From NCBI GenBank assembly GCA_943704415.1, contig CALSCO010000261.1:1-44174 (forward strand): a stretch of DNA of 44,174 nucleotides, given 5' to 3'. Source of the stretch: Parvularia atlantis (taxonomy: Eukaryota > Opisthokonta > Rotosphaerida). A model generated the notes under the pieces. The model made no database searches. It worked only from the letters and a program-made list of their open reading frames with translations, and was not told the origin of the DNA. The translations under genes were made by a program, and so were the position numbers. Below are positions 2,679 through 41,227 of the stretch, one piece after another. Each line of letters opens with the position of its first letter. Positions within the stretch are counted from its first letter, which is position 1.

Positions 2679-5147
2679 ATGATCACGGCGCTTGGCTGGG
2701 TGCGGCGCGGCGTGGCGCAGCGCAACCCGCAGCGCTTCGAGCCGAGCCCGGACCAGCTGGCCGAGCTGACGGCGCAGGCCGACGCCGACGCGGCCGCCTT
2801 CGAGCGCGGCGGCGCGGGCGACGACGACGACGAGGGCGAGGGGGACGAGTGGGAGGACGAGGACGACTCGGACAGCGACGACGACGACGACGACGAGCAG
2901 CAGCAGGGCGAGGGCGAGGGCGAGGACGCGGATGCCGAGGCGGAGCAGGGCATGGATGCCGACGCCGACGGCGCGGACGACGCCGAGCCGGCCGCGGCCG
3001 CTGACGCGATGGATACGGACGACCTGCGTGAGTACAACCTCGACACGTACGACGACGAGCCGTCGGGTGCGCGGGCGTGCCGCTCCCCCAGGTGACCGGT
3101 ACGCTCACTGCGCCGCCCGCCCGCAGACCTGAACATCTTCGGCTCGCTCAAGGGCCTGCAATACTACCCGAGCAACTCGCAGGACCCGTACATCACGCTC
3201 AAGGACGAGGCCGACAGCGACCCGGAGGAGGACGACCTCGTGGTCGAGCCCACCGACAGCCTCATCCTCGCGGCCAAGACCGAGGACGACATCAGCCACC
3301 TCGAGGTCTACGTGTACGAGGAGGCCGAGGAGAACCTGTTCCTGCACCACGAGCTGCTCCTGCCGTCGCTGCCGCTCTGTCTCGAGTGGATGAGCTTCAA
3401 TGTGAACGAGCCGAGCTCGGCGGGTGCGCGTGGCAGCCCGGCTGTCGCACGCGTCCTGAGCACTGGCTGCGCGCAGGCAACTTTGTCGCCATGGGCACGT
3501 TCCAGCCCGAGATCGAGATCTGGAACCTGGACGTAATCGACGCGCTGTACCCGTACGCGACGCTCGGCAAGGCGCCCGAGGGCCACAAGAGGCGCAAGAA
3601 CAAGGTGCAGCGCGTGCGGCTTGACTGCCCGCGCGCCTCACGCCCCGTGGCCCGCAGGTGCATGCCGACTACCACACGGACGCGGTGCTCGGGTTGAGCT
3701 GGAACAAGGCCCACCAGTGCGTGCGGCGTGCGCGGGGGCGCGAGCACGCCGGGCCGACGCACGTGTGCGCAGAAACATGATGGCGAGCGCCTCGGCCGAC
3801 ACGAGCGTCAAGCTGTGGGACATGGCGCAGACCAAGTGCCTGCGGTCTTTCACGCAGCACGGCGACAAGGTGCGTGCGCACACACGAGGGTGGAGACTGC
3901 TGACACGCAGAACGACGTGCGTACGGCACAGGTGCAGTCGGTGGCGTGGAACCCGAGCGAGACGACGGCGCTGCTGTCCGGGTCCTTCGACAAGACCGTC
4001 AAGGCACGTACGCATGCGCCCGCAGATGCCAGCGTCTGTCGCTGACCGCACGCAGGTCATGGACGTAAGAGCACCGGGCGAGGTGCTGTCGTGGGCGGTG
4101 ACGGCGGACGTCGAGACGAGCAAGTGGAACCCGTTCGCGCCGCAGCACTTCCTCGTGCGGTCGACGCGCACTGCCCGCTTGCGCGTTGCTGACGGCCGGT
4201 GTGTGCGCGCACAGGTGAGCACCGAGGATGGCCTGATCACATACTTCGATGCGCGTGTCTCTGGGTGCGTGCGGCGCCGAACGCACCTTAGTGCTCGCAG
4301 CTCACCGCGACGCGCAGGTCGCGGCCGCTGTTCACGCTGTCGGCGCACGAGGACGCCGTGTGCGGCGTCGAGTTCAACCCGCTGGTGCGCGCGTGCAGCG
4401 GGGCGACGGGGAACACGCACTGACAAGCGCGATGCGGACAGATCCGCGACTGCCTCGTCACGTGCTCGTTCGACAAGACGGTCAAGCTGTGGGACCTCGA
4501 GGGCCAGCGGCCGTCACTCGTGCACACGCGTGACATGGGCCTGGTACGCAGCGGGCCCGGTTTGCGGAGGGCAGGCTGACGCGCGCCGCTTGCGCAGGGC
4601 AAGCTTTTCTCGTGCAGTTTCTGCCCCGACTCGCCCATGGTTGTGGCCGTGGCGGGCGGGAAGGGCAAGGTGCGTGCGCGCGGACGCTGATGGGCCTCGC
4701 CTGACCTCGGCGCGCAGATCGAGGTGTTTGACGCGGGGCAACTCGCGCCCGTGAAGCGCCAGTTTGGCGCGCGCATCGACGCAGCTGTGGCCGCAACGGC
4801 CGCCACGCCCACCGTACACGCGGTCGCAGCAGCAGCAGCAGCAGCAGGCGCACCTGGGCCTGCCAAGGGCAAGGTGCGCGTGCTTGCACGGTGGGCCCGC
4901 TGGCGTGACTGACGCGGGGCGTTCGCACAAGGCCGCGTTCAAGCTTACGGACCGCCTCACGGCCGAGGCCACCGCGCGGCTCGACGCCCAGGCGGCGCTC
5001 GCGGCGAGCCCGTCGCCGGCCACCGCGTCGGATGCCGGCACGAACGGCGTCGGCAGCGGGAGCAGCGGCGGCAGCGGCGGCGGCGGCGGCGGCGGCAAGA
5101 AGAAGAAGAAGAAGAGCAAGGCCCAAGATGGCATGTCGAGCAAATGA
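2679..5147 (+). CDS. PWP1: PWP1 homolog, WD-repeat ribosome-biogenesis factor
   Basis: Thirteen exons. The start gives [14 protein letters not shown], matching the conserved PWP1 N-terminus (AWVRxGVA). An acidic Asp/Glu stretch (about residues 45-120) follows, then [20 protein letters not shown] and WD repeats with [61 protein letters not shown] and LVHTRDMGL. Each has a direct counterpart in human PWP1. The C-terminus is Gly-rich and then a Lys run ending KAQDGMSSK, a likely nucleolar-type basic tail. PWP1 proteins act in rRNA transcription and large-subunit assembly in the nucleolus. The intron 4004-4055 starts with GC, not GT (AAG/GCACGT). The last intron (from 4875) ends in AAG rather than the usual CAG. 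Confidence 0.95.
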
Positions 5148-5302
5148 TGAATGGTTTGCCTTTCTACAAGTGAACGCGCTGTGCGCTCACTTGCGCCGCA
5201 GCAGCGAGCGACCATGTCGCAAAACTGAGGGATTTCGCCAGTTGTAGATCTGGGAACGCCATTACTAACCGCGCACACATACGCCCGCGCCTGCCGCCTG
5301 CA

Positions 5303-7754
5303 ATGGCGGACGCGCGCGCTGTCACCGATGTCGCGGCTGCGGCCGCCGCGGGCGACTGGGCGGCGGCGGCGGGCCACCTGCGCGCGCTGGCCCGTGCGGA
5401 TCGGCCTCGCGTGCGTGTCGCAAGCCGTGCGCATCGTGGTTGCTCACTGGTCGCGGTGCAGGTCGCGTACAACCTCGCCGTTGCGCAGTACCGCGCGGAT
5501 GGGCGCACCGATGCGCTCGCGGCGCTGGTCGGCGGCGTGCCCGAGGCGCACAAGGCCGCGGCGCACTGCGCCCTCGCGATCGCGCACTACCGGCAGGGGC
5601 GGCTGGACGCGGCGCGGGGCGTGCTTGAGCGGCTCGTGCCCGCGCTGGACGCGGTCGACGACGACGTCGCGCTGAGCGCCTCCCTGCTGCTCGTCGAGGT
5701 CGCGCTGCGGCAGGGCGACGTCGAGCGCGCGCGCCAGGCCGTCGCGCTCACCGAGCAGCGCTTCTTGGGACTGCTGGCCGGCACGCGCGCCCGCGAGATG
5801 CCGTGCGACGTCTGACCGAGCGCATGCGCGAAACAGAGGGCGGCAAGGGCGCGCACGGCACTGCTGACAACGACGAGGACGAGGACGACGCGAACGAGGA
5901 CGAGGACGGGGGCGCGGCGTCCGCTGCACCTGCTGTCGCCAGCGTCGCCCTCGGCAACGTCGCGCTACTGCTGCACCTGTACAAGGTGTGCTGTGCCTCG
6001 CCGCGGCGGCCGTGCTGACTGACCGTGTGCGCGCACCAAGGCCCGCCTGTCGCTGCAGATGCGCTCGCTGCGCCAGGCGCGCCGCGAGGTCAAGGCCGCG
6101 CTGGCCATCGACCGGCGCAACCCGACGGCGCTCTTCCTGAAGGCACGCAGCCAGCTGTGCGCGCCAAAGTGCCAAAGCTCCCGCGCAGGCCTACGCCGAG
6201 TGTCTGCGGCACAACGCCAAGAAGAGCGTGCGCATACTGCACATCACGCAGCGCTCGTCCGCGGCCGCCACGTACGTCTGCGTTGTGCGGTGCCCGCTCA
6301 CTGACACTACGCACGCGCGTCAGCTCATCGCGCGCCATCTACATCAGCAACCTCGGCGGCGTGTACTTGCAGCAGCGGCGATTCGCGGCGGCGACACTGC
6401 TGCTGCATCAGGCCGCAACGGGAGGTGCGCCCATTGCGATGCACCGCGCGCCGTGCGGGACCGACACAGGTTTCGCCTCAGGCGCGTCTGAATTGCAGCA
6501 GTTTCAGCTCGGCGCATCCCCGCTGCTGCCGAGCGCGCCATCACCGGCGACGTGGGCAGCGTTCCAGCTTGGCACAGCGCTCGTGCTGCGCGGCGCCGGC
6601 GCGGACGCGTTGCGCGTGCTGCTCGACGTGCAGGCCGTCAGCGATAGCTTGCTCGTGCGTCTGCGCCTGGGCGAGGCCACGCTGCTCGTGCTCGACAGCG
6701 ACAGCGCGCCGGTGCGGCCGCATCTCGCATCCGTGTGCGCGCGCGCTGCTGACTCACGCTGCCGCCCCACAGACCGTCGCTGCAGTCGCCGCGCTGTTGC
6801 GCAAGCACGGCCACGCGAGCAAGGACGACGCCATCGGTGCACTCGCGGGCTTTGCGGCCGTATGCTTCGAGAGCGTCAGCGCGGCCGAGGCGAATGTGCC
6901 GGGGCTGGCCGAGCTGCGTGTGGCCGCGCACTGCGGGTGCGGGTGCGCCGTCTACTGGCGCTGGCGCTGATGCGCGGTGCACGCCAGCCTCGCCCGCGCG
7001 TGCCTGCGAGTGCGACGGCTGGACGACGCGATTACGCACGCGGCTGCCGTGCTCGGCGTGGGCGGCGGTGGTGCCGCGAGCAAGCGTCTGCACGGCTACC
7101 TCGCGTGCGCCCGGCTTGCGTCCTTCGCCGTGCTGTGCTGACTGCCTTCACTCAGTGACGCCGCGCTCTGCGTCGCGCACGCCTGTGCGGCGCTTGGTCG
7201 AGCCGCGGACGCTGTGCCGGTGCTGAACACGCGCATCCAGGTGCGTGTGACGTGCCGGGACTGCTGCGAGGTGACGCACGATCGCCGGCAGGAAGTCGAG
7301 GCGAACGGGTACGAGGCCCTGCGCGCGTCCTTGCGGCTGTGCCTGGCGGCGGTACTCGCTCACCTGGGCCGTCACGCCGACGTGCTGCGCGTGCTGGACC
7401 CGCTGCTGGTGCCGCACCAGCCAGGTGCGCTGCGGTGCTGGCGCGCGCATCAGGCGTGCTTACGGCGTGCGCCGTCCAGCGCCGCCGGCGTGGCTCGACG
7501 TGCGCAAGGGCGCTGTGCCGCCGTGGATGGCAGCGAGCTATGCGCCGTCCGTGCGCGTGTCGCCGGCGGTGGCAGACGCGCCGCAGCGGTTGCAGGTGGT
7601 CACGCTGTACGTTCACAGCCTGCTGCACGTCGGTGCGTGCGCAAAGGCTGCCTGTTGTCGTGCGCGCATGCTCACAGCGCACGCAGGCGAGAGCGGGCGT
7701 GCGCTGGACGTGCTGCGCGCAAACCGACACGAGACAGGCAGCGCGCAGTGGTAG
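5303..7754 (+). CDS. CNOT10: CNOT10 homolog, CCR4-NOT complex subunit
   Basis: About 13 exons; start MADARAVTDVAAAAAAGDWA, end ETGSAQW. The protein is a TPR solenoid of Ala/Leu-rich helical pairs. The first blocks (AYNLAVAQYRADG, CALAIAHYRQGRLDAARGVL, LLVEVALRQGDVERARQA) follow the CNOT10 pattern, as do a mid-protein acidic insert (near 5860-5910), the block YISNLGGVYLQQRRFAAATLL and the C-terminal block TLYVHSLLHVGESGRALDVL. CNOT10 with CNOT11 forms a module of the CCR4-NOT mRNA deadenylase in the cytoplasm. Two introns are GC-AG: 5781-5836 and 6143-6188. Only these splits keep the frame. The exon edges between about 6840 and 7190 are my least certain in this gene. The identification rests on family pattern and length rather than one diagnostic motif. 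Confidence 0.7.
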
Positions 7755-7782: not shown

Positions 7783-10700
7783 GTTTACAGGCCCCCAAAC
7801 TCGCTCATGGCTGCCGCCGCGCGCGTGAACACGTCGACGCGCTCGCGTGCCCGCCTCCGCTGCTCGTCGACCGCGGGATCCTCGCGCAGCAGCTCGTCCA
7901 GCTGGGCGTCGTCGCGGATGAGCTCGGTGCGCAGTCTGTCTCGTACGCGCGCGTTCAGCGGTTGCGTTGCGGCGGCGGGCTGTGGCGCACCGCCGGTGCA
8001 GCTCGCGCTTTATGAAGTTGACGAGGTAGCACATGATCGCCTTGGGCACGGCGTCCTCGATCGTGCGCCGCACGATCACAAAGTACGCGATGATCAGTGC
8101 GCCTGCCGCACCACAAGTAAGCGTGCTGCACAACCGAGCAGCTGCGCACATACGCAGAATCTCGATCTCGGCGCTCTCACGGTCGGTCACCTGCGCCTGA
8201 ACGATGCGTTGCGCATTGTGGGGTGTCAGCAGGCAGCAAGGCAGCACGACGGCGCTGCCGCACTAGCGTCGACGTGATGGCCGCGGCGGTCCCGTCCGTG
8301 ATCGCCGGCTGCGTGGCCGAGCGCGGCCGCTGCACCTGCGCACCGTTAATCACTGCAAAGCACCCGGACACGCCGCACCGGCTCGCCCCCGCCGCTGACG
8401 CCGAGTGCGCCGAAAAGCATGCCGAGCAGGTTGCCGCCGCTGCCCGCGCCACTGCACCGTGTCGTGCGGGTCAGCGCAGGCAGCACGGGCAAAGCGCGTG
8501 CGCGCACGTCTGCTTGGAGGCGGCGAGCACGGTCTGGTGCCGCTGCGTCGCCTGGTAGGCCACGGCCTCGGGCACAAAGTCGCGGTGCTTGGTGTTGATG
8601 TGCGCGAGCTCGATCTGCGCATGGACGGCTGAGCGACGCGGCCGTTGTGCAAACGCGCAGGCGCACGTCGATCAGGCTGTCGATCATCGCGACCGTCGGC
8701 CCCAGGCCCTCCTTCTGCAGCGCGGCCGCGAGCTGGCCGATGCGGCGCTGCAGCTCCGGAAAGCGCACAAGGTCCTGCTGATGGCGTCAGTCGCGCGCGT
8801 CTGATGCGCGGGCGGGCGGGCGGCGCACCCGCGGCTGCGCCTGCACGACGATCTTGGTCACCTCGTCCGACACGAGCTGCGCGCACTGCCGGCTCGGTGC
8901 GCGCAGGCGCTCCAGCTGGCGCTTGACGAGCGTCTCGAAGGCGGCGTCCGGGATGAATAGCGACTGCTGTGCGCCCTGCGAGCCCATGCCGCGAACCGCT
9001 CAGCAGCGCCGCAGTCGCTTGCACTGCGTACGCACGCCGCAGTTGCGCAGCGCCATGCGCAGGTCTTGCGTCGTCAGGCCCGCGCACGGGTCCGTTTCCT
9101 CGAGCTCCCTCTGAAAGCGGTCACGGAAGATGCTGGCGATGCGCGCGCCGCCGACACTGCGTTGCGCGCGTGCGCGTGTGACTATGAGGCGCGCACGCCG
9201 TGTCTGTGCGTACATCTCGTTGCCGCCCAGGTCCGCGCGCCCGTCGATCAGCGCGGCAAACACGGCAGCGAAGGCGTCGATCTGCTGGAGCAGCGCGGCC
9301 ATCTGCGCCGCCGCGAGGCACGTCAGCGAGCGGTTGTTGTTGGCACAAACGCGGCGGCGCACCTTTTGCGTGCGCGACTGCACCGGCTCGCCGTACAGGA
9401 GCATGCGACGCTGCGCCTGATCGAGTTGCTCGTGCACGCGCATGCGAATCGTCGGCAGCTGGGCGTGGATGCTGCTGACGAGCAGCTGCGCAGGCCAGTC
9501 AGCGACAACGACAGCGTTGCGCGCGCGTACCTGGTTGAGCTCGCGCGACAGGTTCGCCGTGCCGCAGCGGTGCGCGATCGGGGCGTAGGCCGGGTGCGCG
9601 CGGAAGTACTTCTCCTCGGCCAGCAGCGACTCCCTGGCGTGCGGCGTCAGCGCGCCCGAGAACGCATGCTCGTCGCGCCGCACGCACTGCAGCGACCGCC
9701 CCGCGCGCGTGTCGTGCTGGCTGCGGTTGACAACGCCGACAAAGCCCAGCCGCAGCGGCACCTTGCGCCCGGCGAGGATCTCGGCCGCGTCCGTGCCGCG
9801 GTCCATCAGGTCGAGCTTGGTCAGGACGCCGATGGTGCGCTCCCCTGCGCCGCGCGGCATGAGGCGGCTTTGCTTGCGTGTGGCAGGCTGCGCACCGTCC
9901 GGGTCGAGCTCGGCTGCGAGGTTGAGCGACTCGGAGTTGGCGATGTCGACGTTGGCCGCCGAGACGGCAAGGATGATGCTGTTGGGCTGCTGGGCGTACC
10001 TGACGACGAGGTCGCGGATCTGCCGCGCGATGTTGGCAGGCTGGTTGCCGACGGGGATCTATGGTGTGTACGCGAACGGGTCAGCGACCGTTTGTGCACA
10101 CACGACGCCTCGGACGCACCTTTGTCAGCCCGGGCAGGTCCACGAGCGCGAGCGTGACGACCTTGGGCGAGCGGATCGTGAGCAGGATCGGTTCGGCGCT
10201 GATGGCCTTGGCCACGCCGCACTTGCGGTTCGTCTCCTGCGCGCGCCGGTGAGCATGGGCCGTTGCACACGCCGTCCGTGCCGCCCGCGCGCCTCCTCGA
10301 TCTCGCGCCGCATCTGGCCAAAGTCGTAGAAGCGGCGGCTCGGGACGTGCGCAAACTCGCCGTACTCCTCTGCGCGCGCGCCGGGTCGTTTCGGTCGTGG
10401 CGCAACGGTCGCCCGGCCGCCACCGACCTTGCGACTGCGGCGTGTGCACGAGCTGCAGCACGAGCGGGCGCCGCGTGACGATGTCGGCGCCGCGCGGCAG
10501 GAAGTCGCGCCCGACAAAGGCCTCGAGCACGGAGCTCTTGCCGGCGCTCTGGCTGTGGCGGATGCGGCGCGCGGCGTGTTGGGTGACTGCTTTTGCGGCG
10601 CGTACGCGTCCAACGCGCCTGCCCACGACGACGATCGACGGCAGCTGCAGCGGGTCGTCCTGCAGCGAGTCGGTGATGCCCTGTGCGGGCCTCAGTGCGG

Positions 10701-10787
10701 CGCGCGCGCGCACAGGCCAGCCTGCCAGCGGCGCACCCGCAGCTTGTTGAGCGCGACGATCAAGCGTGACGCGTCGCCGCTCGCCAT
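7783..10787 (-). CDS. Dynamin-related GTPase (Drp1/Dnm1/Vps1 type)
   Basis: About 18 exons. I chose the start at 10787 (MASGDASRLIVALNKL), which fits the dynamin N-terminal helix; an in-frame ATG at 10880 would add 31 residues. G1 is GSQSAGKSS, then GRDFLPRGADIVTRRPL (G2), DLPGLTK (G3), TKLDLMDRG (G4) and VNRSQ (G5). The middle domain (SIHAQLPTIRMRVHEQL, GGARIASIFRDRF) and GTPase effector domain (EDAVPKAIMCYLVNFIK ... LDELLREDPAVDEQRRRA) are complete. A Gly/Ser variable segment (GAGSGGNLLGMLFGALG) replaces a PH domain, so it is a membrane-fission DRP for mitochondria/peroxisomes or vacuole traffic rather than classical dynamin. Introns 10553-10618 and 10237-10292 are GC-AG. It is convergent with CNOT10, 28 bp between stop codons. 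Confidence 0.93.
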
Positions 10788-11473
10788 CTCTTCGCCGAGC
10801 ACCACAAAGGGGTAGGTCCTGGTAAGCACAAAATACACGAGGGCCGGGTACATCTCTCTGCGACTCGAGGGGGGTGCCACCTACCGACGTGGTATCAGGT
10901 CGGGTTCAGTCTTGGCGCCGGCGCTTGGGCTGCTGGCCGTTGTCGTTGGCAGGGCGGTCGCGGCACTGGGCCGCTCGAGGCCGCTCGAGGCCGACGGCGT
11001 GCAAGAAGACGGCCGGCACGCGTTCATATGTCCCTTGACCATGTGTCGCTGCACGGTGAAGGATGCCGTGAACGGACTTGACGCCCGACGTGTAGTACGA
11101 CGGGCTGGCTGTTGACGTGAAACGATGGCGCGCTCATCCTTCTCCCCACAGCGCCGCCAGAATCGCACACAACGCCACAGGCAACACAAACAGCATCCCT
11201 GGCACCCGCACAGCAAGCGGCGAGCCGCACGGTGGGCCGCACGGGCCACACGAGCCGCCCGCCCGCCGCGACCCGCCGTCACGCATCCTCCGCCATGCTG
11301 GCACGCGCGGCCGTCCACCTAGGCGCGTACGCCATGATGGAATACGCATGCGTACACGTAAGTGCATTAGTGTATGCTACCTGTGTACAAATGTTGTTAC
11401 TCAGCTGGCAAATGAACGTGAACTTAGGCTGAGCCGGCCGAAGAAAACAAGGAGGGTTGTACATAGGGGGGCT
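10788..11473. other. Long spacer between two minus-strand genes
   Basis: This is the only stretch over 300 bases without a supported gene. It separates the dynamin-related gene from the end of squalene monooxygenase. The left half stays GC-rich and the part 11335-11465 is clearly richer in A/T. A CTCGAGGCCG unit occurs twice in tandem near 10975-10994. One small minus-strand ORF with a hydrophobic segment is listed separately. Confidence 0.5.
11134..11286 (-). CDS. Possible small membrane protein ORF
   Basis: A 50-codon minus-strand ORF starts MRDGGSRRAGG and ends with a convincing hydrophobic stretch, MLFVLPVALCAILAALW, followed by GEG and stop. No family is recognised. It could be a real tail-anchored micro-protein, one exon of a small spliced gene continuing toward 10900, or chance coding in GC-rich spacer. 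The region 11335-11465 upstream of it is A/T-richer, as expected for intergenic sequence. Nothing else supports it. Confidence 0.2.
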   Translation of the reverse strand: MRDGGSRRAGGSCGPCGPPCGSPLAVRVPGMLFVLPVALCAILAALWGEG

Positions 11474-27699: not shown

Positions 27700-29688
27700 A
27701 TGGACGCCGGGCAGGTCGTGCTGGTGGCGCTGCAGGTGTGTGTGCGCTCACGCCGCAAAGGCCGGGCAGCGCTCACCTGTCGAGGCGCGCGCAGGCCGCC
27801 GTCAAGGTGTTCCTCGTCGTCTTGGTTGGCGTCGCCCTCACGCGCTACGGGCTGCTGCCGCCGCAGCTGCAGAAGGCGCGCACTGGAGCGCGGCGGAGCG
27901 GCACGGCACGCGCGCTGACACGTGCGCCTCTCGGCAGGGCGTGAGCACGCTCGTCGTCTACGTCTTCACGCCGGCGCTGCTCTTCGTCAAGGTGGCCGAG
28001 GTCATCTCGCCGCAGCGCCTGCTCAACTGGTGGCCGCTCGTGGTCTTTGTCGTGCTCTTCGTGCTCATGGCGTTTGTCGTCGGCTGGTTACTCGCTTTTG
28101 TGCTCGGCATGGGCTCGGTGCGCGCACTCGCCGCACCACGCCGCGCCGCGCATTCGCCGACGACCGCCGGCGCAGGCGCACCGCAACTTTGTCATCTCGG
28201 CGTTCGCGTTCCGCAACACCCAGTCGATCCCGCTCGCGCTCATGATGGAGCTGGCGGTCGGCCTGCCGATCCTGCTCATGGACGACAGGGACACGCCCGA
28301 GGACGTCGCGAACCGCGGCGAGGCGTACATCCTCTTCATCACGGGTGCGCGCGCGCTTTCGCCCATTCACTTGCGGTCTGAGCCTCCTCATCGCCGGCCG
28401 CAGCGCTCGTCAACGTGCTGCGCTGGACCGTCGGTGCGTGCGCCTTGCCCCGGGGTCGTCGCACGGGCGTGCTCATTGGGCGCGCAGGCTCGCGTCTGAT
28501 GGACCACAAGTACGCCGGCGCGAAGCCGCTGAAACTGTGCGGGCACGCCCGGCCCGGCTGCCGACGACGCTCACACGGCCGGCACGCACAGGTCAACGGG
28601 GCAGGACGACGCCGAAGATGCGGGCGCGCCGCAGGACAACGCCGGCAACGGCGAGCATATCGAGATCCGGCGCCTCACGCCCGAGCGCGCCGAGCTCGTG
28701 CGCCGCTCTGACCGCACGCGAGGGCAGCTGCTGACTGACGCCTGGTGCGCACGCAGCACGACCGGCTCGTGCGCGGCCTGTCGTTCGAGTTCCTCTACAT
28801 CGACGCCGACGAGGCCGAGATGATGATGTCCGAGACGCGCGGCCTGCTGGAGGAGCAGGAGGGCGAGGGCGACGCGGCGACGTGCCTGCGCCGGATGTGG
28901 CACCGCCTGAAGCGCTTCGTGCACAGTGCGTACGCCGCCGTGCGCCGCCGTGCACGGGCTGACTGACCCGCACACGGCGCGCACAGAGCTCAGCCCGCCC
29001 GTCGTCGCCATCGTACTCGCGCTCTTTGTGGGTCTCATTCCGCCGCTGCAGGCGCTGTTCTTCGGCGACAACGCGCCGCTGCGCTCGACGGTCACGTCGG
29101 CGCTCAACGCGTTCGCCGACTGCGCTGTGCCGAGCACGCTGCTCGTCCTGGGCGGACAGGTGCGGGTGTGCGCTGCGTCGCCAGCCGCTGACACGCCGAC
29201 GGCGGCGCAGCTGAGCAAGGGGCCCCAGCACGGAAACGCCAGCGGCTCGGCCGGCAAGGATGACATGCGGTGCGCCTCTTTGTCTTTGCGTGGCGTCTGC
29301 TCACCGTGCGCCGCGCAGCCCGGTCGGCTACGTCGCTGTGCTCTTCCTCACGCTCGTCGGGTCGCTGCTCGCGTGGATCCCGCTGGTGCAGCTGCTGGCC
29401 TGGGCCGCGCCGGGCTCGCTCATTCGTATGGACCTGACGATGCGCCTCGTGCTCATGCTCGAGAGCGCAATGCCCGCGGTGCGGCGCTGCGCTGCACCAT
29501 GCGCTGGCGGCGGCTGACGTCTGCGCGGGCGCCAGGCGGTCAACCTGCTGACGCTCGCGTCGCTCAACGGCTTCCTAGAGCAGACCGTCGCCAACGTGCT
29601 CTTCTACTCGTATACGCTCTCGGCCATCACGCTCACGGGCGCGACGGTCCTGATCGTGATCGTGCTCGAGAGTTACCCCATGGCATAG
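27700..29688 (+). CDS. PIN-like / auxin efflux carrier-family membrane transporter
   Basis: Twelve exons. Start MDAGQVVLVALQ, then helices VKVFLVVLVGVALTRYGLL, VSTLVVYVFTPALLFVKVAE, WWPLVVFVVLFVLMAFVVGW, and the hallmark HRNFVISAFAFRNTQSIPLA. A hydrophilic central loop (acidic AEDAGAPQDNAGNGEHIEIR, later MMMSETRGLLEEQEGEGDAA) separates the N- and C-terminal helix bundles. C-terminal helices include VVAIVLALFVGLIPPLQALF, CAVPSTLLVLGGQ, VGYVAVLFLTLVGSLLAWIP and NVLFYSYTLSAITLTGATVL. This is the Mem_trans (PF03547) architecture, as in fungal ECM3-like proteins. Substrate is unknown; auxin transport should not be assumed outside plants. Intron 27874-27937 is GC-AG. Confidence 0.9.
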
Positions 29689-29706: not shown

Positions 29707-31019
29707 CTACAGTTCAACGACCACGGGCGCATCCTCGCCGGTCTCGGGCTCGTCGTCGTCGGCTGCGGCCGCGGCTCGGTCACTGCTTGGCAGGACGACG
29801 ACGCCGAAGCGCGACTCGGCCAGCGTGCACAGCTCCTGGCAGGCCTCGCGCAGCCGGGCGGGCGCAGCGGCGGTGCGTGCGTTGCGCAGCAGCGCGGCGA
29901 GCGAGTGCGAGATGAAGTTGTCGGCCACGGCGTCGGGTGGCAGCAGGTCGACTGGCATCAAACTGAGGTGCACGCGCACGACGTCTGGCGGCGCGTTGGC
30001 CACGTCAGACGCAGCTACACCCACACGGGCGCGCGCGCGCGCACCGACGAAGGACACGAAGAGCTGCGGCGTCTGGCCCATCTGTTCGACGCACGAACAG
30101 AAGAGCACAAACAGGGCCTTCCACTGCTCGAAGCCGTCGTACATCTGCACGACGAGGAAGCACACGAACGCGAGCTGCAGCTCGCCCAGCAGGTGCTCTG
30201 TGCATCGTGGTCAGCGCACGGCGCGAGGGACGGCGGCTCCGTGCGCGCACCGGGCCGGTCGAAACGCGTGGCGAGCTGCCGCAGCAGCCAGCTCTTGTCG
30301 AGGCTGTACTGCGTCACCTGCGCCGGCGGCGCGCCCTTCGGGAACGAGCGCTTGAGGTCGAACGCGGACCACCGCACGTCGGACGGCGTCGGCGCTTCTG
30401 CCAGCGAGGCGTCCGTGCTCGCCGGCGCGCCCGCGTCCTCGGGCGGCATGCCGCTGACCCTGCCGGACGGCGGCAGGAGCAGCTCGAGCACGCGCGGCGC
30501 GATCAACCGCGACAGCGCCTGCCACACCGGGTGCACCTCGTCGAGCGGGTACGCGCCCATCGACGGCTCGAGCTCTGCGCCCGGGCCGGTTACACGCGCC
30601 AGCGCTCGAGCGGGGCAGCGCGCACCGCGCAGCGTGCTGTCGCTGAACACGACCGAGTCGTCCGCGATCAGCTCCTCGCGCTCGGTCGACCAGACGAGGT
30701 GGTGCACCTGGCGCGCCTGCAGCGTCACGAAGATGCCCGAACGTGCGCCGGGCTGGTCGCCGCTCTTGACCGGGCTGCGGCGCACGGGCGTCGCGTCACA
30801 CAGGCGCCCGTCACAGGCGCACGTCACAGGTCGCATCGCGCGCCTAAAGTAGACGAGGTGCAGCCCGGGCGGCAGCATCTTGACGCCGCGGAAGCGCTCG
30901 CCCACGCGCCACGCGCGGAAGTCGACGCCAAACTCGGTGTCGAGCGGGACGCCGTCGACGACGAGCTTGGCGCCGTGCACAAACAGCTCGACATTGCGCG
31001 CATCTTCCTCAGATTGCAT
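29707..31019 (-). CDS. AAR2: AAR2 homolog, U5 snRNP assembly factor
   Basis: Five exons. Start [20 protein letters not shown] aligns with the AAR2 N-terminus. Diagnostic blocks follow: DTEFGVDFRAWRVGERFRGV, KMLPPGLHLVYF, GIFVTLQARQVHHLVWS, REELIADDS, MGAYPLDEV, FPKGAPPAQVTQYSLDKSW, LGELQLAFVCFLVVQMYDGF, EQWKALFVLF and the characteristic end APVVVEL. AAR2 binds Prp8 in the cytoplasm and releases it to Brr2 during U5 snRNP maturation. The first intron (30775-30843) is itself GC-AG. The start codon overlaps that of the divergent gene at 31018. The stop lies 18 bp from the PIN-like stop. Confidence 0.93.
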
Positions 31020-32026
31020 GCCGAACAAGTGGGTGAAAGTCGAGGTAGGCGACGCGCCGCTGGTCATCGCCGCGCCGCACGGCGGCCACGCCAAGCCCGA
31101 CATGATCCCGCGCCGCTCGGGCCCCGGCGTCGTCATCGACGGCGACCTGCACACGCTCGAGCTGGCCGAGCGCCTGGCCGAGCGCTTCACGCAGCGCACG
31201 CGGCGGCACATGCATGTCGTGATCTGCAAGCTGCACCGCAGCCGCCTCGACGCGAACCGCGAGGCGCGCACGGCCGCGCTGGGCGACCCGGACGCTCACG
31301 CGGCGTGGGACGCGTACCACCGCGCGATCGAGCAGGCGGCTGGTGCGGTGCCGTTGTGGAGGTGCCGTTCAATCGCTGACGCCGCGCCGTATCAGCCCGC
31401 GTCGTGCAGCAGTGGGGCCGCGGGCTGATCGTCGACCTGCACGGTGCGGCGTGGCTGTGCAGGTGCGACTGCCGCTGATGCGTGCACATGTGTGTGCGCG
31501 CTTCCCAGGCCAGGGCCACCCCGAACGCTGGATCGAAATCGGGTACACCGTGCGCGACGTCGTGCTGCGCCGCCCGGACGCCGAGCTGGACGCGGCCAAG
31601 TCGTCGCCGCTGCTCACGACCGCGTCGATCGCGGGCCTCGTGCGCCGGCGCATGCAGGCCGGCGTCGCGCCGTCCGAGGTGCTGCGCGGGGCGAGCAGCC
31701 TCGGCGGGCTGCTGGAGGCGGCTGGGTACAGCGCGATCCCGTCGCCGCGGCACCCGCACGCGGCCGGCGGGCACTACTTCAGTGGCGGCTACACGTCGGC
31801 GCGGCACGGCTCGGCGTCGCAGCAGCGGGAGGACGTCGCGCAGGACGTGCACACGCCGATCGCGACCGCGCCGGGGCCGATCGACGCCGTGCAGCTCGAG
31901 CTGCCGCTGGCCGTGCGCGACCCGGCGAGCCCCGCGCGCGACGCGTTCTGCGACGTGCTGTGCGACGTGCTGCTGCGCTTCCTCGCGACGCACTACGGCC
32001 ACGACCACCCGGGCGCGCTGCTGTGA
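31018..32026 (+). CDS. N-formylglutamate amidohydrolase-like hydrolase
   Basis: Three exons: 31018-31342, 31396-31443, 31509-32026. Start [20 protein letters not shown]. The family signatures are APHGG near the N-terminus, [16 protein letters not shown], and [18 protein letters not shown] after the second intron. These carry the His/Asp residues expected to bind zinc in FGase proteins. Bacterial FGase cleaves N-formylglutamate in histidine breakdown; eukaryotic relatives are uncharacterised, so the substrate is open. The rest ([32 protein letters not shown]) is a coherent single exon. No signal or targeting sequence is seen. The next ATG is well inside the conserved core, so this start is almost forced. 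Confidence 0.85.
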
Positions 32027-32067: not shown

Positions 32068-34280
32068 ATGCTCCTCCGTGGTCGCCTCGCTGTCACAGCT
32101 GTCGCGCGCCTCAGCACGGCCGCCGCCACCGGCGCCGCGCGCAAGCCGAGCGACAAGCTGTACGCGAGCGCGGCCGAGGCCGTGCGCGACGTCCCCGCAG
32201 GCGCGACGCTCGTCGTGGGCGGCTTTGGCGTGTGCGGCATCCCCGAGAACCTGCTCAAGGCCGTGCGCGATCTCGGCGTGAAGCAGCTGACCGTCGCGAG
32301 CAACAACTGCGGGTGCGCCGCGCACCGCGCCACCACGGGGCGCCGGGTGGCGGCTTAGACGGCCCACAGCCTCGAGGACGCTGGCCTCGGCATCCTGCTC
32401 AAGAACCGCCAGATCAAGCGCATGATCTCGTCCTACGTCGGCGAGAACGCCGAGTTTGAGCGGCAGTACCTCTCGGGCGAGCTCGAGGTCGAGCTGGTGC
32501 CGCAGGTGCGCCGCGGCTCTGTGGTGGTGACGGCCGCTCAGCGGGGCGCACGCACGCGCACAGGGCACCCTCGCCGAGAAGATGCGCGCGGGCGGCGCGG
32601 GCATCCCCGCCTTCTACACGCCAACCGCGCACGGCACGCAGATCCAGACCGGCGGCGTGCCGATCAAGTACAACAAGGACGGCTCCGTCGCCGTCACGTC
32701 GCTGCCGCGCGAGGTGCGCCAGTTTGCCGGCCGCAACTACATCCTCGAGGAGAGCATCCGCGGCGACTTTTCGCTCGTCAAGGCGTGGAAGGCCGACCCG
32801 GTCGGCAACCTGCTCTTCCGGTACGCGCTGCAGCACCGGCGCGGCACGACGCGCCCTGAGTGTCGGCGCGCGCGCGCAACAGCGGCTCGGCACGCAACTT
32901 CAACCCGCCCGCCGCCAAGGCCAGCAAGGTCACGATCGTCGAGGTCGAGGAGCTGGTACCGCTCGGCCACCTCAGCCCGAACGAGGTGCACGTGCCCGGC
33001 ATCTACGTGCACCGCCTCATCGTTGGTCCGTCGTACGAGAAGCGCATTGAGGTGGGTCTCACCGTGCTGCGGTCCGCAGCCGATCGCTCACCCGCGCGCC
33101 GTGCAGCGCCTCACGCTCTCGCCCGCCCCGGGCGCGGCCAACAACGCCGCGGGCGCCAAGCCCGACGCGGACGCGGCCAAGCGCGACTTGATCGCGCGCC
33201 GAGCCGCCAAGGAGTTCCAGGACGGCATGTACGGTGCGTTTGCACGAGCGTGTGCGCCCGTGCACCTGCGCACCGGCATGACCGCGCGCCGCAGTCAACC
33301 TCGGTATCGGCATGCCCACGCTCACGGCCAACCTGATCCCGAAGGGCATGACTGTGCACCTGCAGAGCGAGAACGGCATCCTGGGCCTCGTGCGTGCCGA
33401 CATCGCCCTCGCTGCGCACCGCTGACGCACCCGCGTGCAGGGCCCGTACCCGCAGCCGGGCCAGCAGGACCCTGACTTGATCAACGCCGGTGGGCCTGCG
33501 CGCGCTTCCCGCCGCGGCGCCGTGCTCACGCGCTCGCCGCGCGCAGGCAAGGAGACAGTAACGCTCATCCCCGGCTCGGCGCTGTTTGCGAGCGACGAGT
33601 CGTTTGCGATGATCCGCGGGTGCGCTGCGGGGCGCAGGGCTGTGCGCGCGCTGCTCACGCCGCGAGCGCACGCAGCGGCAAGGTCAACCTGACCATCCTC
33701 GGTGCGATGGAGGTCAGCGCCGGCGGCGACCTGGCCAACTGGATCATTCCGGTGCACACCGCTGGGCCGCTTGCCCGACCGTGTGTGCTGACACGCTCGC
33801 TCACCGCCAGCGCAAGATGGTCAAGGGCATGGGCGGCGCGATGGACCTGTGCTCGGGCGGGAGCCGCGTCGTGATCACAATGGAGCACACGGCCAAGGCA
33901 CGTCTCTGTGTGCGTGCGGCAAGGCTCGCACGCACTGACCACACCGCGCGCCCGCGCAGAACGGGAAATCCAAGATCCTGCCCAAGTGCACGCTGCCGGT
34001 CACGGGCGTGCAGTGCGTTAATCGGATCATCACCGAGCTGGTGCGCCGGCGAGGGCCTGGGCGCGTGTGCGCGGGCTGACGGGCGCGCACAGTGCGTCTT
34101 TGACGTCGTGCCGGGCAAGGGCCTGCTGCTCATCGAGGCGCGTCCGGCTATCTGCCGTGCTCGCCCGGTCGCGACTGACTTGGGAACACGCAGCTGGCCA
34201 AGGGCGTCGCGGTCGAGGACGTGCGCAGGAACACTGCCGCGCCGTTCGAGGTCGCGGGCACCCTCGGCAGCTTCGAGTGA
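32068..34280 (+). CDS. OXCT1: Succinyl-CoA:3-ketoacid-CoA transferase (SCOT)
   Basis: Thirteen exons. The N-terminus [20 protein letters not shown] is Arg/Ala/Ser-rich and fits a mitochondrial presequence. Domain [93 protein letters not shown]. Domain [36 protein letters not shown] (catalytic Glu in SENG), [60 protein letters not shown]. It transfers CoA from succinyl-CoA to acetoacetate for ketone-body use. Introns 33898-33959 and 34138-34193 are GC-AG. It begins 41 bp after the preceding gene stops. Confidence 0.97.
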
Positions 34281-34311: not shown

Positions 34312-36114
34312 ATGGAGTTGGCGTGGTCGACGCTCTGGGCGCTGGCGATGCCGCTGGTGGACCCCGCGCGGTCCGCCGCGCCGTCGTTCGCCGCCACCGG
34401 CCCGCTCTCGACGCCGCCACCCGAGTGGGACTACAAGCAGCTGTGCGCGCTCATGCGCGACGTGCGGCTGCCGGCGATGGTCGTGGACCTGGACGTGCTC
34501 GACCGCAACATTCGGTGCGACGTGCTCGCCTGCGCCTCGCCGCCCTGACGCGCGCCCCGCGCCCCGCCGCAGCAAGTACGCGGCGATCGTGCGCGCACAC
34601 GGCAAGACGATCCGCCTGGCGACCAAGTCGGTGCGCGTGCCGCAGCTGGTCAAGCACATCCTCGAGCAGGGCGCGGGCGCGATCGTGGGCGTGATGTGCT
34701 TCAGCACGGCAGAGGCGCGCTTCCTGGCCGACGAGTTTGGCGTGGACGACCTGCTGGTCGGGTACCCGAGCGCCGTGCACGACCTGGACGACGCGTGGCA
34801 CCTGGCCCTCGCCGGCAAGAACGTGCAGGCGCGGCCGACCCGTACTCCCGGCCGCGCCTCGCAGACCAACACGTTTGCCCGCGCGCGCACGCGTAGCTCA
34901 TGGTCGACTGCCCCGCGCACATCGACGCGATCGAGGCATTCTGGCAGACCAGGCGCCGCGCGACGCCGCAGGCCCCGGCCGGCCTGCGCCTGCAGGTGTG
35001 CATCGACATGGACTGCTCGCTCGAGGTGCCCGCGCTTGGCCTACACGTCGGGCCGAACCGCAGCCCGCTGCGCTCGCTCGGCACCTGCGAGGCGCTCGTC
35101 GACCGCATCTTGGCGTCTGGTGCGTCGCGGGCGGGCCGCGTGCACTGCGAAGGCGTTGACGCGCGCCGACCAGACTGCGTGACCCTCGTCGGCGTCATGG
35201 GCTACGAGGCACGCACGCGACGCCGACGTTCTGCCCTGACCCTCGCATGCTCAGGCGCAGATCTCGGGCGTGCAGAACACGAACCCGTTTGACCCGTGGT
35301 ACATGCGCGAGCTGATCCCGGTGGTGCAGGTGCGGCGCGCGCCGTCGGGCTGAGCGCGCCAAGGTTAAGCGCGCTGTGGCAGGCCGTGTCGATGCCGGAC
35401 GTGGTGAGCAAGCGCGCCGCCGTCACCGCGATGATCAAGCGCAAGGGCGTCGCGCTCAAGTACTTCAACGTTGGCGGCAGCGGCAGGCGCGGCCGTTCGC
35501 GCGCACAACGGAAAAGCGTTGACCTGACGCGCATGCCGAGCAGCCTCGCCGCGTCGGCCGCCGACCCGTCCGGCACGGAGATCACGGCCGGCAGCGGCTT
35601 CCTGCAGTCGCACCTGTTCGACTACTTTGCCGTGAACCAGAACGAGTGCGCGTTCGCATTCGGTGCGCGGCGTCCGCTGGACGCACGGTGCGCTACAAAA
35701 CTCACTGGCACCGCCTCGGCAGGGCTCCGCGTCACGCGCAAGCCCGTGCCGGGCATCGTCACGTGTCAGAGCGGCGGCTTTGCGGCGAGCGGCAAGACGG
35801 TGCCGGACAAGTCGCCCGTGCCGTTCCTGCCCGTCGGTCTGTCGATCAGCGCCGAGGAGGGCTTCGGCGAGGGTGCGCCGACGGCACTGCGCACGCCGTC
35901 TGATCCGCTGAACCGCGCGTCTCGGACCGCAGTGCAGACGCCGCTGCTGCTGCCGCCGGGCGTCGCGCTCGAGATCGGTGACCCGGTCTTTGCGCGGCCG
36001 GCCAAGGCGGGTGAGATCGCCGAGCGCTTCGAGCACTACATGCTCAAGCGCGGCGGCGCGTGGGTCGACACGCGCGTGCTGACGTACCGCGGCCACGGGA
36101 AGACGTTCTTCTAG
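34312..36114 (+). CDS. D-threonine aldolase / D-serine dehydratase-like PLP enzyme
   Basis: Nine exons; start MELAWSTLWALAMPLVDPAR. The alanine-racemase-type barrel begins LPAMVVDLDVLDRNIRKYA; in this family the PLP lysine follows in the segment AHGKTIRLATKSVRVPQLV. Next come GVMCFSTAEARFLADEFGVD, LLVGYPSAV, QVCIDMDCSLEV and LHVGPNRSPLRS. The C-terminal beta domain has EITAGSGFLQSHLFDYF and ends WVDTRVLTYRGHGKTFF; its HxxxC-type metal site is not clear to me. Related enzymes act on D-amino acids. Four introns are GC-AG: 34829-34896 (acceptor TAG), 35209-35260, 35332-35369 (38 nt) and 35487-35543. It starts 31 bp after the SCOT stop on the same strand. Confidence 0.85.
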
Positions 36115-37500: not shown

Positions 37501-37522
37501 CTCGGCCCGTCGCCCATGTGTG

Positions 37523-38814
37523 TCATGCTGTGCCATCGTGTACAGGTGCAGCGCGCGAGTCGCGCGGCACGATGTCGAACCGCTCGCGAAACAGGTCGAG
37601 CACGCCCGCGAGGCTCGCCTGCGCACCCAGCGCCCGGCGGTCTGCGCCCGGGGCTCAGCGCGCCGCGAGCCGAGCGCACGAGGCCGCCGCACGCACCGGC
37701 GATGCCGAGCACGTTGTCGCACATCTTGCTCAGGTGGTGCATGAGCGTCTTGTGCGGCATGCTGTACCCGAGCGCGATGTCGAGAAAGTCGGCGATGCAC
37801 TCGGCCGGCGTCTGGCATGCACGTGCGTGCGTGCGCGCGTGCATGCGTGAACAGGGCATAGGCAGCCAGCCAACCGTGCGCGACGTGCCTGCGCGTGCCC
37901 GGCGAAGAGCGCCGGGTTCTCGAGCAGCCCGCGTGCCGCCATCACGCCTGCACCGCGCAGTCATCACTCGCGCGGTGCAGCGCTCGCCGCGGTCGGCGCA
38001 CCGTTCACGCCCGTGCTCGCATGCACCGCGTGCGCGTCGGCCAGCGTGAAGATGGACCCGTTGGCCAGCACGGGCACGCCCACGCTCTGCTTGACCTGCG
38101 TGCAACAGCAGTTGAACGAGCAAGCGCATGCAAACGATCGCCCGCACCAGCTTGATCGCGTCGTAGTTGGGCGCGGTGGACGAGCGCTGCCGCGGCGTCC
38201 GCCCGTGCACCGCGATCCACGCCACGCCAACGTGCTCGGCCGTCTGCGCGAGCTGCACGGTCTTGCTGCGCGGCAGCGGACGCTCAGATTGTGCGGGCAG
38301 CCACCACGGCCGCGCCCGACGCGCGCCTCAGGTCGCTGTCGATGCGGATCTTGATGCTCACGGGCACGCCCGCGCGGTTCGTCGCCTGGCGCACCATGTC
38401 GCGCACGAGGTCGGGCTTGGTGAGCAGGTCGGCGCCGTAGCCGCCGTGCATCGCCCACGACTGTGGACAGCCGCAGTTGAGGTCGACGGCGTCGGCGAAG
38501 GGCGCGGCCAGCTCAGCGGCCGCTGCAAAGTCCTCGGCGCGGCGAGCGCCAAACTGCACCACAAGCGGGCGGTCCTCGCTGTTGGTCGTGAACTCGCTGT
38601 CGCGCGCGCGCGCTGAGGCGACGAACGAGTCGGCGATGATCATCGGCGAGTACACGAGGTCGCAGCCGTAGCGCCGCACGAGCTGGCGAAACGGCAGCCT
38701 GGATCGATGAGCGCGTGTGAATGGTGCGATGCGTGGTGGCACGCGCACGCACTTGGAGTACCGCACCATCGGGGCGGCGACGCACACGAGGTCGCGCGCC
38801 CACACCGCATCCAT
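37523..38814 (-). CDS. DUS4L: tRNA-dihydrouridine synthase, DUS4 type
   Basis: Seven exons. Start MDAVWARDLVCVAAPMVRYS; an in-frame upstream ATG at 38919 would abut the neighbouring mL41 start, so 38814 is preferred. Family motifs: PFRQLVRRYGCDLVYSPMII, ARDSEFTTNSEDRPLVVQFG, VDLNCGCPQSWAMHGGYGAD (catalytic Cys in NCGCPQ), GVPVSIKIRID, VAWIAVHGRTPRQR, VGVPVLANGSI, GVMAARGLLENPALFAG. RDSEFTTN and CPQSWAM favour DUS4 over DUS1-3. It reduces U20a/b in tRNA D-loops with FMN. Introns 38266-38326 and 37812-37888 are GC-AG. The last exon ends DSRAAPVHDGTA; its acceptor was chosen to keep frame (DRRALGAQASLAGVLDLF). Confidence 0.92.
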
Positions 38815-39374: not shown

Positions 39375-39399
39375 GCATGTGAACATCGGGGCGCAGACG

Positions 39400-40786
39400 T
39401 CACAGCCGCGACGCAGAGGCGCCCTGTGAGGGCGCATGGGAGAGCAGGTGCGACACGAGCACATCGTAGAAGTCTGCGCCGGCGTCCTGCTGGATCTTGG
39501 CCGAGTAGTTGGTCTGCACACCGCGGGTCAGCACGAGCGCCATCACCGCAGAGGCGCGCTCACCGAGACGTTGACGTCGTACGTGAACCGGTTGCCTGCG
39601 TCCGGCGTGAGAAGCGCGCCTCACGCCTCGCGACCCGCACGCGCACGCGCACCCTGCGCGTCCTCGATGAACTCGAAGCCCGCGACCGACACGCCATTGT
39701 CGCGCATGAACTCGGCGTAGCGTCGCACGATCTCGTCACCTGGTGCGACGTCGCGGCGGAGCGTGAAGCGCTGCTGCAGCTTGTCGGCCGGCGTGGGCTG
39801 CTCGCAGGCGTCGGCGGGGCAGCTGCACCACAATGCGCGTGAGTGCACGCCAGCGCACGCCAGCGCAATGCAGCGTGCGGCGCACAGCTCGAAGCCGCCC
39901 TCGGTCGAAGTATACATGGCGTCTGGCGGAGGCGCAGGCGTTCAGCACGGCGCACGGCAGGCTGCCCGGCACGCACACAGCATGCGGCCGCCGACCATCT
40001 CCACGCGCGTGATGCGCGGTAGTGGCGACGCGATGTACTGCTGCACAATCGTCATGCCGTCGATCGACAGCAGCTGCGACAGGTCCGCGCGTCGCAGCAG
40101 CGCGTTGAGCTCGTCCTGGTTGCGCACGAGCACAACGCCGAGCCCTGTCGCGCCGGCATCAGCACGACAGCCGCACAGTGAGCGGCGCCCTCGCCTTTGC
40201 CGCCGCAGTTGGGCTTGACGATGAGCGGGAAGGCCATGCGGCGCGCAGCGGCGGCGATCTCGGGCGCGCCGCCGAGGACGACGCGGTAGTCGGGCACGCG
40301 TACACCGGCCGCCTGCAGCGCCATGTACTGCAGCGCCTTGCTGATCTCGAGCTCGAAGGCCGCGAGGCCGTTCTGCGCGGCAGCAGAGGTGAGCGAAGGA
40401 CAGGACGCAACGTCCTTACGCACGACAACGGTGGCACCGTGCCGCGCGAGCCACTGCAGCACGACGCGGTAGCACGCGATCGACAGTGCGTGCCCGCGCG
40501 ACGCCGCGCTGGCTGAGCAGCGGCTGAAGAAGACAGCGTCGGCGGGCGGCGGGAGCGTGAGATCGAGGTCGCCCGTGTGCATGAACTGCGCTCCTATCAG
40601 CAGCGACGCGACGACCGGCATCGAGCGGCATCCACGCACCACCGTCTCGTGCGGCACGCCGCGCTCGCGCAGCTTGCCCACGAGCGGCGGCAGCCACTCC
40701 TGCATGCGTGCGCGGGCGCGTCAAAGAGAGCTCGCACACCGGGACATCGCGCGTACCTCGTTCTCGTACAGCACCACAACCTTCAT
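39400..40786 (-). CDS. ATP-grasp carboxylate-amine ligase-like protein (RimK/COG0189 type)
   Basis: Eight exons. Start MKVVVLYENE, then EWLPPLVGKLRERGVPHETV. Characteristic blocks: AVFFSRCSASAASRGHALSI, VNGLAAFELEISKALQYMAL, AAGVRVPDYRVVLGG, FPLIVKPNCGGKGLGVVLVR (ATP-grasp glycine loop, restored by splicing), SIDGMTIVQQYIA, ITRVEMVGGRMLYAM, GGFELCPADAC, NGVSVAGFEFIEDAQG and the metal-binding end RFTYDVNVSTNYS. This pattern matches an uncharacterised ATP-grasp family of bacteria and fungi. It likely joins a carboxylate to an amine; substrates are unknown. I first considered inositol-tetrakisphosphate kinase and dropped it. Intron 40145-40194 is GC-AG. Its start is 12 bp from the next divergent start. 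Confidence 0.75.
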
Positions 40787-40798
40787 TTCCTATCGTAA
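40787..40798. promoter_or_regulatory. 12-bp divergent start region
   Basis: Twelve bases, TTCCTATCGTAA, lie between the ATG of the ATP-grasp gene (-, 40784-40786) and the ATG of the Cys-rich gene (+, 40799-40801). Confidence 0.5.
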
Positions 40799-41227
40799 AT
40801 GTACAGAACCGTCGTGCTCGTCCTGATCACCGTCGCGGCGGCCGTTCTGGCCTCGGCGGCCTCGGCAGGCGACGAGCGCTTCGTGCAGGCGCCGACGCGG
40901 CGTGAGACGTTCGCTGCGGACGACGGCACGTGCGGCGCGCTGCCGGTGCAGGTCGACGTCGACAACTGGTGCGAAGCGCACTTCCCCGCTCCACGGCGCG
41001 CTGACGTCGCCGCCGCCCAAGGTTCGGCTACTGCGCCGAGGCCGACTGCGTGAGCGTGCCGGGCCTGCAGCACCAGCGCGTCTCGTGCCCGGCCGCGCCC
41101 GTAACCTCCGTCGCCGACACGCCCCTCCCGGCCGGCGCGCCGTACGTCGTTGCGACGACGTTCTCGGCCGACGACTGCACCGGCGCCGTGGCCATCGAGG
41201 CCGTGCGGGCCGACGGGCAGGTGCGGG

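Follow-up and report, generated by a model that had tools for sequence, protein, structure and literature searches.

Do the introns of Parvularia atlantis that appear to begin with GC form a genuine class, and what would allow so many of them to be used? The question is raised by a 44,174-nucleotide contig of this rotosphaerid (contig 59 of an assembly of 16.25 Mb in 616 contigs; hereafter the window), in which an earlier note had placed, by eye, about two dozen GC donors among roughly 190 introns, near 12%. A gene finder trained on the window and on 20 further 10-kb stretches of the assembly (244 kb of the 16.25 Mb in all) called 200 introns in the window, with 175 GT, 23 GC (11.5%, Wilson 95% confidence interval 7.8-16.7%) and 2 CT donors, in close agreement with that estimate. 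The 23 GC introns are spread over 13 of the 24 window gene models, one of the 13 fusing two adjacent genes (gene model 15 is such a fusion). The high share of GC-AG introns in the window is thus confirmed on sequence evidence, as a clean case of a phenomenon that is ordinary in kind.

The gene finder was a two-strand Viterbi model with codon usage, a donor matrix, branch site plus acceptor, and length as components. All 16 donor dinucleotides were open and the coordinates of the earlier note were not fed in; the branch-site and acceptor matrices from which it started were hand-made once window introns had been viewed, so the finder is not wholly blind. The donor model was neutral at the start (equal dinucleotides, flat matrix) in one of two runs and seeded with GT, then freed to all 16, in the other. 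The AG acceptor was obligatory in the main model and was freed in a separate run. The 20 additional stretches, contig starts or adjoining pieces, are a non-random sample: two come from contig C417 (picked for Prp8), four from C477 (U1), one from C142 (U6) and 13 from C1, C2 and C300-C310. Masked bases in one of them were taken as non-coding.

Over the 244 kb, the GT-seeded run gave 905 introns with 783 GT, 88 GC (9.7%), 15 CC, 6 CT, 4 TG, 3 TC, 2 AT and 2 CG donors and two others. The neutral start led to nearly the same result (910 introns; 782 GT, 85 GC, 21 CC, 6 CT, 4 TG and few others), and limiting the donors to GT and GC yielded 106 GC donors in 893 introns (11.9%). Sensitivity was estimated in silico, with model parameters fixed, by switching 640 GT donors to GC (8 draws of 80); 570 were recovered exactly, 59 were shifted and 11 were lost, and the sensitivity-corrected GC share is about 11%. 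The window does not stand out: 23 of its 198 GT-or-GC introns are GC, as are 65 of the 673 in the other stretches (Fisher p 0.42). GC introns were found in 20 of the 21 stretches, one having none, with no significant heterogeneity (p 0.36), and 57 of the 129 gene models hold at least one. At the average of 1.3% reported by Iwata and Gotoh (2011), 88 or more GC introns in 905 would be expected with a probability of about 3e-47. Genome G+C is about 70% and that of the window ranges from 67.5 to 72.5% (22 steps of 2 kb), a high G+C that goes here with a GC-AG share well above this average.

The GC-AG introns called in the window are as follows, with strand, gene and what is available at each junction.

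4004-4055, plus strand, WD40-repeat gene 2679-5147; model, junction at the edge of matched WD40 repeat 312-348.
5781-5836, plus strand, TPR gene 5303-7754; model, beyond the matched stretch.
6143-6188, plus strand, TPR gene 5303-7754; model, beyond the matched stretch, branch-site motif unclear by eye.
6482-6559, plus strand, TPR gene 5303-7754, absent from the earlier list; model, beyond the matched stretch.
10237-10292, minus strand, dynamin-like gene 7785-10853; junction gap-free against PDB 8v8t.
10553-10618, minus strand, in the P-loop codons of dynamin-like gene 7785-10853; gap-free against PDB 8v8t.
15232-15284, minus strand, Iml2/TTC39-like gene 14927-17642; model, just past the PF10300 match.
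16702-16757, minus strand, Iml2/TTC39-like gene 14927-17642; model, within PF10300.
16881-16938, minus strand, Iml2/TTC39-like gene 14927-17642; model, within PF10300.
20096-20147, minus strand, absent from the earlier list; model only.
21342-21392, plus strand, M28 peptidase gene 20820-22419; model, beyond the PF04389 match.
21649-21713, plus strand, M28 peptidase gene 20820-22419, absent from the earlier list; model, within PF04389.
25332-25388, minus strand, gene 25045-26134; model only.
27876-27937, plus strand, membrane-transport gene 27700-29688, start previously given as 27874; model, within PF03547.
30775-30843, minus strand, gene 29707-31067; model only.
33898-33959, plus strand, succinyl-CoA:3-ketoacid CoA transferase (SCOT) gene; gap-free against PDB 3dlx, 685 bits.
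34138-34193, plus strand, SCOT gene; gap-free against PDB 3dlx, 685 bits.
34829-34896, plus strand, D-threonine-aldolase-like gene 34312-36114; model, within the matched stretch, weak homology.
35209-35260, plus strand, D-threonine-aldolase-like gene 34312-36114; within the 7yqa-matched stretch, weak homology.
35487-35543, plus strand, D-threonine-aldolase-like gene 34312-36114, absent from the earlier list; within the 7yqa-matched stretch, weak homology.
37812-37888, minus strand, tRNA-dihydrouridine synthase gene 37523-38814; model, within the matched stretch.
38266-38326, minus strand, tRNA-dihydrouridine synthase gene 37523-38814; model, junction gap-free.
40145-40194, minus strand, ATP-grasp gene 39400-40786, donor GCGAGG off the +4C pattern; within the RimK match, 30 bits.

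Eighteen of the 19 GC introns listed in the earlier note were placed exactly by the model, the remaining one moving from 27874-27937 to 27876-27937, and four were added (6482-6559, 20096-20147 on the minus strand, 21649-21713 and 35487-35543). Inspected by eye, 14 of the 19 stretches show GC...AG on the strand of the gene, with a branch site like CTGAC, CTCAC, CTGAT or CTGAG before the acceptor; a clear branch site is wanting in those at 6143, 10553, 30775, 34829 and 37812. Homology was checked for ten window proteins. Fifteen of the 23 GC introns lie within stretches matched to known proteins, five are in checked proteins beyond the matched stretch (5781, 6143, 6482, 15232 and 21342), and those at 20096, 25332 and 30775 belong to proteins outside the ten compared. 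SCOT against 3dlx (685 bits) and the dynamin-like protein against 8v8t are the strongest cases, each gap-free at both junctions; homology is weak for the D-threonine-aldolase and ATP-grasp proteins. It had been claimed that reading frame and conserved protein can only be joined if these introns start with GC. In the two genes compared, junctions restricted to GT indeed insert or delete conserved residues: 22 residues are inserted in the P-loop of the dynamin-like gene and 18 dropped before ETNRK, while SCOT gains four residues at the 33898 junction and loses ten at the 34138 junction. The word "only" is nevertheless too strong, since the model limited to GT does find other junctions.

The model recovered the two parallel consensus sequences that had been read by eye as RG/GCRCGY and G/GTGCGY. 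GT donors (n=783) follow G/GTGCGY, with +3G at 0.92, +4C at 0.90 (707/783), +5G at 0.95 and +6Y at 0.82, and GC donors (n=88) follow AG/GCRCGY, with -2A at 0.65, -1G at 0.88, -3A at 0.42 and +3A at 0.26. Relative to GT donors, GC donors are enriched in -2A (57/88 vs 265/783, p 4e-8), -1G (77/88 vs 560/783, p 9e-4), -3A (37/88 vs 194/783, p 8.5e-4) and +3A (23/88 vs 37/783, p 1e-9), and -3A, -2A, -1G and +3A each contribute to a joint logistic fit (z 2.4, 4.4, 2.5 and 6.1, respectively). The consensus around the mismatch is therefore stronger in GC donors, though their U1 pairs outside +2 are barely more numerous. No significant difference between the classes is seen at +4, +5 or +6 (+4C in 76/88 and +5G in 81/88 GC donors). 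Exon-end AG is enriched among GC donors in every intron phase (p 2e-4, 1e-4 and 7e-4). Phase 0 is commoner in GC introns (51/74 vs 305/622 GT), as expected if the context is supplied by codons ending in AG.

Beyond the donor, the two classes are alike. Median lengths are 57.5 (GC) and 56 (GT) bases, with 95th percentiles of 85 vs 74; the branch matrix reads GCTSAC and the acceptor GCAG, and the fraction with a branch motif is 0.72 in the GC class and 0.78 in the GT class. The acceptor has -3C in 85 of the 88 GC introns, and its -4G is slightly different (67/88 GC vs 512/783 GT, p 0.04). As predicted, these introns thus have a GC donor, an AG acceptor and otherwise the signals of the GT-AG class, as in the GC-AG subclass of U2-type introns. 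With regard to U12-type introns, which have donor and branch motifs of their own and the U11, U12, U4atac and U6atac small nuclear RNAs, the observation made is that GC introns have signals in common with the GT class. As for intron retention, introns that are both 3n in length and open make up 24/88 of the GC and 181/783 of the GT class, with no clear difference.

The dependence on context was expressed as the natural logarithm of the background C:T ratio over the observed one at +2, the trinucleotides called non-coding by the model standing in for mutation pressure. This value is 3.2 overall. With +3G, it is 4.27 in donors having no -1G, 3.82 with -1G only and 2.48 with AG, and it reaches 0.98±0.47 when AG is joined by +3A; the implied selection against +2C falls stepwise with -1G, then with -2A and then, within the AG context, with +3A. 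In counts, the AG/GNA context holds 19 GC to 6 GT donors, and donors with +3G and no -1G are 7 GC to 206 GT. The context rule is not made by detection bias, because recovery of simulated GC donors hardly varies with context (0.83-0.94 in classes of 20 or more). CpG decay was considered as the source of the +3 effect and was rejected, CpG being over-represented (observed/expected 1.26).

A family search of the assembly gave one match each for U1 (contig C477; 41 of 149 candidates scored), U6 (C142; 47 of 492), U5 (C53; 46 of 95) and U2 (C10; 23 of 23). The pairing regions of these small nuclear RNAs (U1 5' end AUACUUACCUGG, U6 ACAGAG, U2 GUAGUA, U5 loop CGCCUUUUACUA) are canonical, as judged from the Rfam alignment and the usual forms of these RNAs, and introns of the same type occur on both the U1 and the U6 contigs. 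The sole U6 gene found (L010 1501-1662, that is C142:8820-8981, plus strand) carries a 48-nucleotide insert between GATTAG and CATGG, at a site that we take to fall inside the AGC triad. No GT...AG boundaries whose removal would restore U6 were found in this insert, which contains GTGCGAGCC, presumably a likeness of the RNA polymerase III B box. The U6 gene of fission yeast has an intron, a parallel to the insert-bearing U6 described here. Other RNA searches gave no tRNA gene in the window or in the 20 loci with ARAGORN (bacterial-code setting), no Rfam match in the window at gathering scores, and no match in the assembly to one conserved 18S rRNA pattern.

A single-exon gene encoding a METTL16-like protein was found at L036 1114-2418 (minus strand), flanked by intron-bearing genes; its family, PF05971, also matches in E. 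coli and other bacteria, so that its assignment to METTL16 is tentative and made on motifs associated with this protein. A second match is weak and looks like another methyltransferase. In spite of this METTL16-like gene and of canonical U1 and U6, C occupies +4 in 707 of 783 GT donors. Three pieces of LUC7 were recovered, all at contig ends (end of L033, C511; start of L034, C75), perhaps from one gene and probably owing to an assembly break, and the predicted neighbours of these pieces also carry GC introns.

Taken together, the GC-AG introns of P. atlantis are probably ordinary U2-type introns that tolerate C at +2, through GC-biased mutation combined with tolerance in strong sites. The share of the class, the context rule and the canonical pairing regions of U1, U2, U5 and U6 are the observations on which this proposal is built. 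The genome at about 70% GC, in whose non-coding sequence GC outnumbers GT 2.8 to 1, would supply the mutation pressure, and one canonical U1 would serve both GT and GC donors. The cost of the +2 mismatch would drop steeply with an exon-end AG and more with +3A, so that mutation pressure would fill the strong sites with GC while weak sites would remain GT, in a mutation-selection balance. We infer that mutation bias is the driver, and that the influence of the exon end comes from U1 pairing at -2 and -1 together with pairing to loop 1 of U5. The enrichment of A at -3, left unexplained by U1, suggests the U5 loop, whose uridines would suit A at both -3 and -2; the part played by U5 may be as large as that of U1. 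In human, where the background C:T lies below 1 and about 1% of donors are GC, the ln ratio would come to about 4.4 (an estimate, not a computed value); on these figures the excess would be owed in roughly equal parts to composition and to weaker selection.

Several points weigh against this proposal. Every intron used here is a prediction from DNA sequence, and the AG/GNA class comprises only 25 donors. U1 pairs outside +2 (from -3 to +6) average 5.08 in GC and 4.97 in GT donors, and mean U1 duplex energy is weaker in GC donors (-2.72 vs -4.40); position -3 even pairs with U1 less often in GC donors (0.32 vs 0.47), because the base gained there is an A, with which U1 forms no pair. At best, then, U1 pairing compensates in part. 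In donors lacking AG, +3A is of no help (3.98 vs 3.82; 4.62 vs 4.27). The odds ratio between +2 and +3 is 6.8 as observed and 3.5 in background trinucleotides, and about two thirds of this interaction, on the log scale, is composition, chiefly TA avoidance. The C that 90% of GT donors have at +4 is left unpaired by both U1 and U6 in the usual register. Finally, composition alone is no general cause, Micromonas RCC299 having 2.7% GC-AG introns at 64.1% GC (PMC3033335).

Part of this evidence would suit a donor read by something beyond plain U1 and U6 pairing; the reader may be a protein, or else U6 itself, if the insert in the sole gene copy found alters it. This view, which we regard as unlikely yet the most serious of the alternatives, is entertained because +4C is kept, unpaired, with a METTL16-like gene present, and because +2C comes within a factor of about 3 of background given AG and +3A, with total U1 pairing hardly rising. 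In Saccharomycotina, METTL16 presence accompanies +4A (PMC10581693).

A spread of GC donors through copies of a few intron families, as with the introner elements of Micromonas CCMP1545 (GC donors in 53% of IE-A1 introns; PMC3879977), appears very improbable. The donor and branch-site consensus does resemble that of Micromonas (AG/GTGCGT, NCTGAC), and intron-intron matches at E<1e-3 were obtained for 178 of 905 real introns vs 14 of 905 after a shuffle that did not preserve dinucleotides. GC introns are, however, no richer in such matches (18/88 vs 156/783 GT), and stricter cut-offs leave 2 GC vs 10 GT (E<1e-6) and 1 vs 6 (E<1e-10). In the 244 kb of the 16.25 Mb, no set of introns resembling many other introns was found. 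The strongest similarities link the window intron from 26842 to introns at L017 1947 and L030 7410, and the window member of this family is mostly a GT repeat.

A modified U1 with a changed base opposite +2, serving the GC donors, is if anything slightly less credible still. Such a variant has been proposed for the GA donors of the copepod Eurytemora (PMC7072748), and the donors here depart from U1 at +4 too. On the other side, the single family match among the 41 of 149 candidates scored and the single match to a pattern left free at three central positions are the same canonical gene; no U1 complementary to the GC donor was found, and a divergent copy could be absent from the assembly or among the candidates unscored.

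We give as little credence to a prediction artefact, in which the true donors would be shifted GT sites and GC would be called as the commonest dinucleotide. GC does top the 15 background dinucleotides listed (16.7%), and a model allowing GT only still finds 868 introns (log-likelihood 22016.5). Allowing a second donor raised the log-likelihood by 721 for GC, 324 for CG, 265 for CT and 263 for CC; once GC was allowed, a third donor added at most 39 (CC), with +28 for CT and -1 for CG, and we think that the other second donors gain by absorbing the misfit left by missing GC. The case of CG is telling, its background of 15.1% being near that of GC. When the 122 non-GT donors were set to GT in silico and the model restarted from neutral, 905 of 908 introns were called with GT, 3 with CA and none with GC, and GT-only junctions damage the dynamin P-loop and SCOT, as described above. 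The CC donors (15/905, or 33/908 when allowed as third donor) were rejected, since they look the way miscalls within coding sequence should look. With acceptors freed, 925 introns had AG in 866, GC in 27, CC in 9, AC in 8, AT in 7, GT in 4, TT in 3, AA in 1 and GG in none, in a run that was still unsettled (GC acceptors, 7 at first, had reached 27 after five rounds); the 59 acceptors other than AG put the method noise at about 6%.

Sequencing or assembly errors, or C-to-U editing, turning GT into apparent GC have nothing found in their favour and can practically be dismissed, GG acceptors being 0/925 vs 866/925 for AG and the class being tied to an exon-end context that errors would not know. 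The suggestion of the earlier note that GC donors look like an accepted second class rather than errors agrees with these controls, with the +4C/+5G/+6Y pattern kept, similar lengths, presence in nearly all stretches and no GG acceptor.

The context effect on GC tolerance is measurable in P. atlantis thanks to an intermediate GC share (about 11%), one canonical U1 found and no introner family in the 244 kb. In practice, an annotation limited to GT would lose or misplace about one intron in ten. The phenomenon itself is already known, and what is added here is a gradient with context, described in a genome where one U1, a canonical one, was found; we do not claim that such a gradient is unpublished. 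The share was rightly called unusually high among eukaryotes at large, and it is not new: shares of this kind are on record for several GC-rich species, in some of which the values are far higher.

Over 61 species, GC-AG introns average 1.3%, with 39.6% in Aureococcus anophagefferens, 22.2% in Micromonas pusilla, 7.7% in Chlorella and 2.7% in Micromonas RCC299 (PMC3033335); general frequencies are also available (PMC7072748, PMC10639083), to which PMC3488318 adds nothing on this subject. Iwata and Gotoh related GC-AG abundance to GC content and left it as a puzzle not easily explained (PMC3033335). The excess is found in the genomes richest in GC, as in Aureococcus, M. pusilla and Chlorella, and the share of P. 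atlantis falls within their range. In M. pusilla, GC donors are partly tied to introner elements (PMC3879977), in contrast to the 244 kb studied here. The G/GTGCGY donor with +4C and the CTSAC branch site of P. atlantis are also reminiscent of mamiellophytes, GTGCGT donors with CTGAC branch sites being described in Micromonas and Ostreococcus (PMC3879977, PMC2483917); the branch site of Micromonas lies 43-52 bases from the acceptor (PMC3879977), whereas here it appears closer by eye, in introns whose median length is 56 bases. Between the two 5' splice-site classes described by Parker, Fica and Simpson in 2025 (PMC11732430), GC donors here resemble the U5 class in weighting the exon end (AG/), and differ from the AG//GUNNN class in that +5G is not relaxed (81/88). 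Emiliania huxleyi, whose genome is also GC-rich (65%), likewise has many GC donors with an unchanged AG acceptor: 56-65% across data sets, including 56% of 241 manual junctions and 61% of 73358 Cufflinks donors, vs 15% in the JGI models, with nine GC junctions confirmed by reverse transcription PCR and Sanger sequencing (PMC4028052). GC donors are thus a majority with transcript evidence in that alga and a predicted class of about 10% here. P. atlantis joins E. huxleyi, Aureococcus, Micromonas pusilla and Chlorella among the published GC-rich species with an excess of GC-AG introns.

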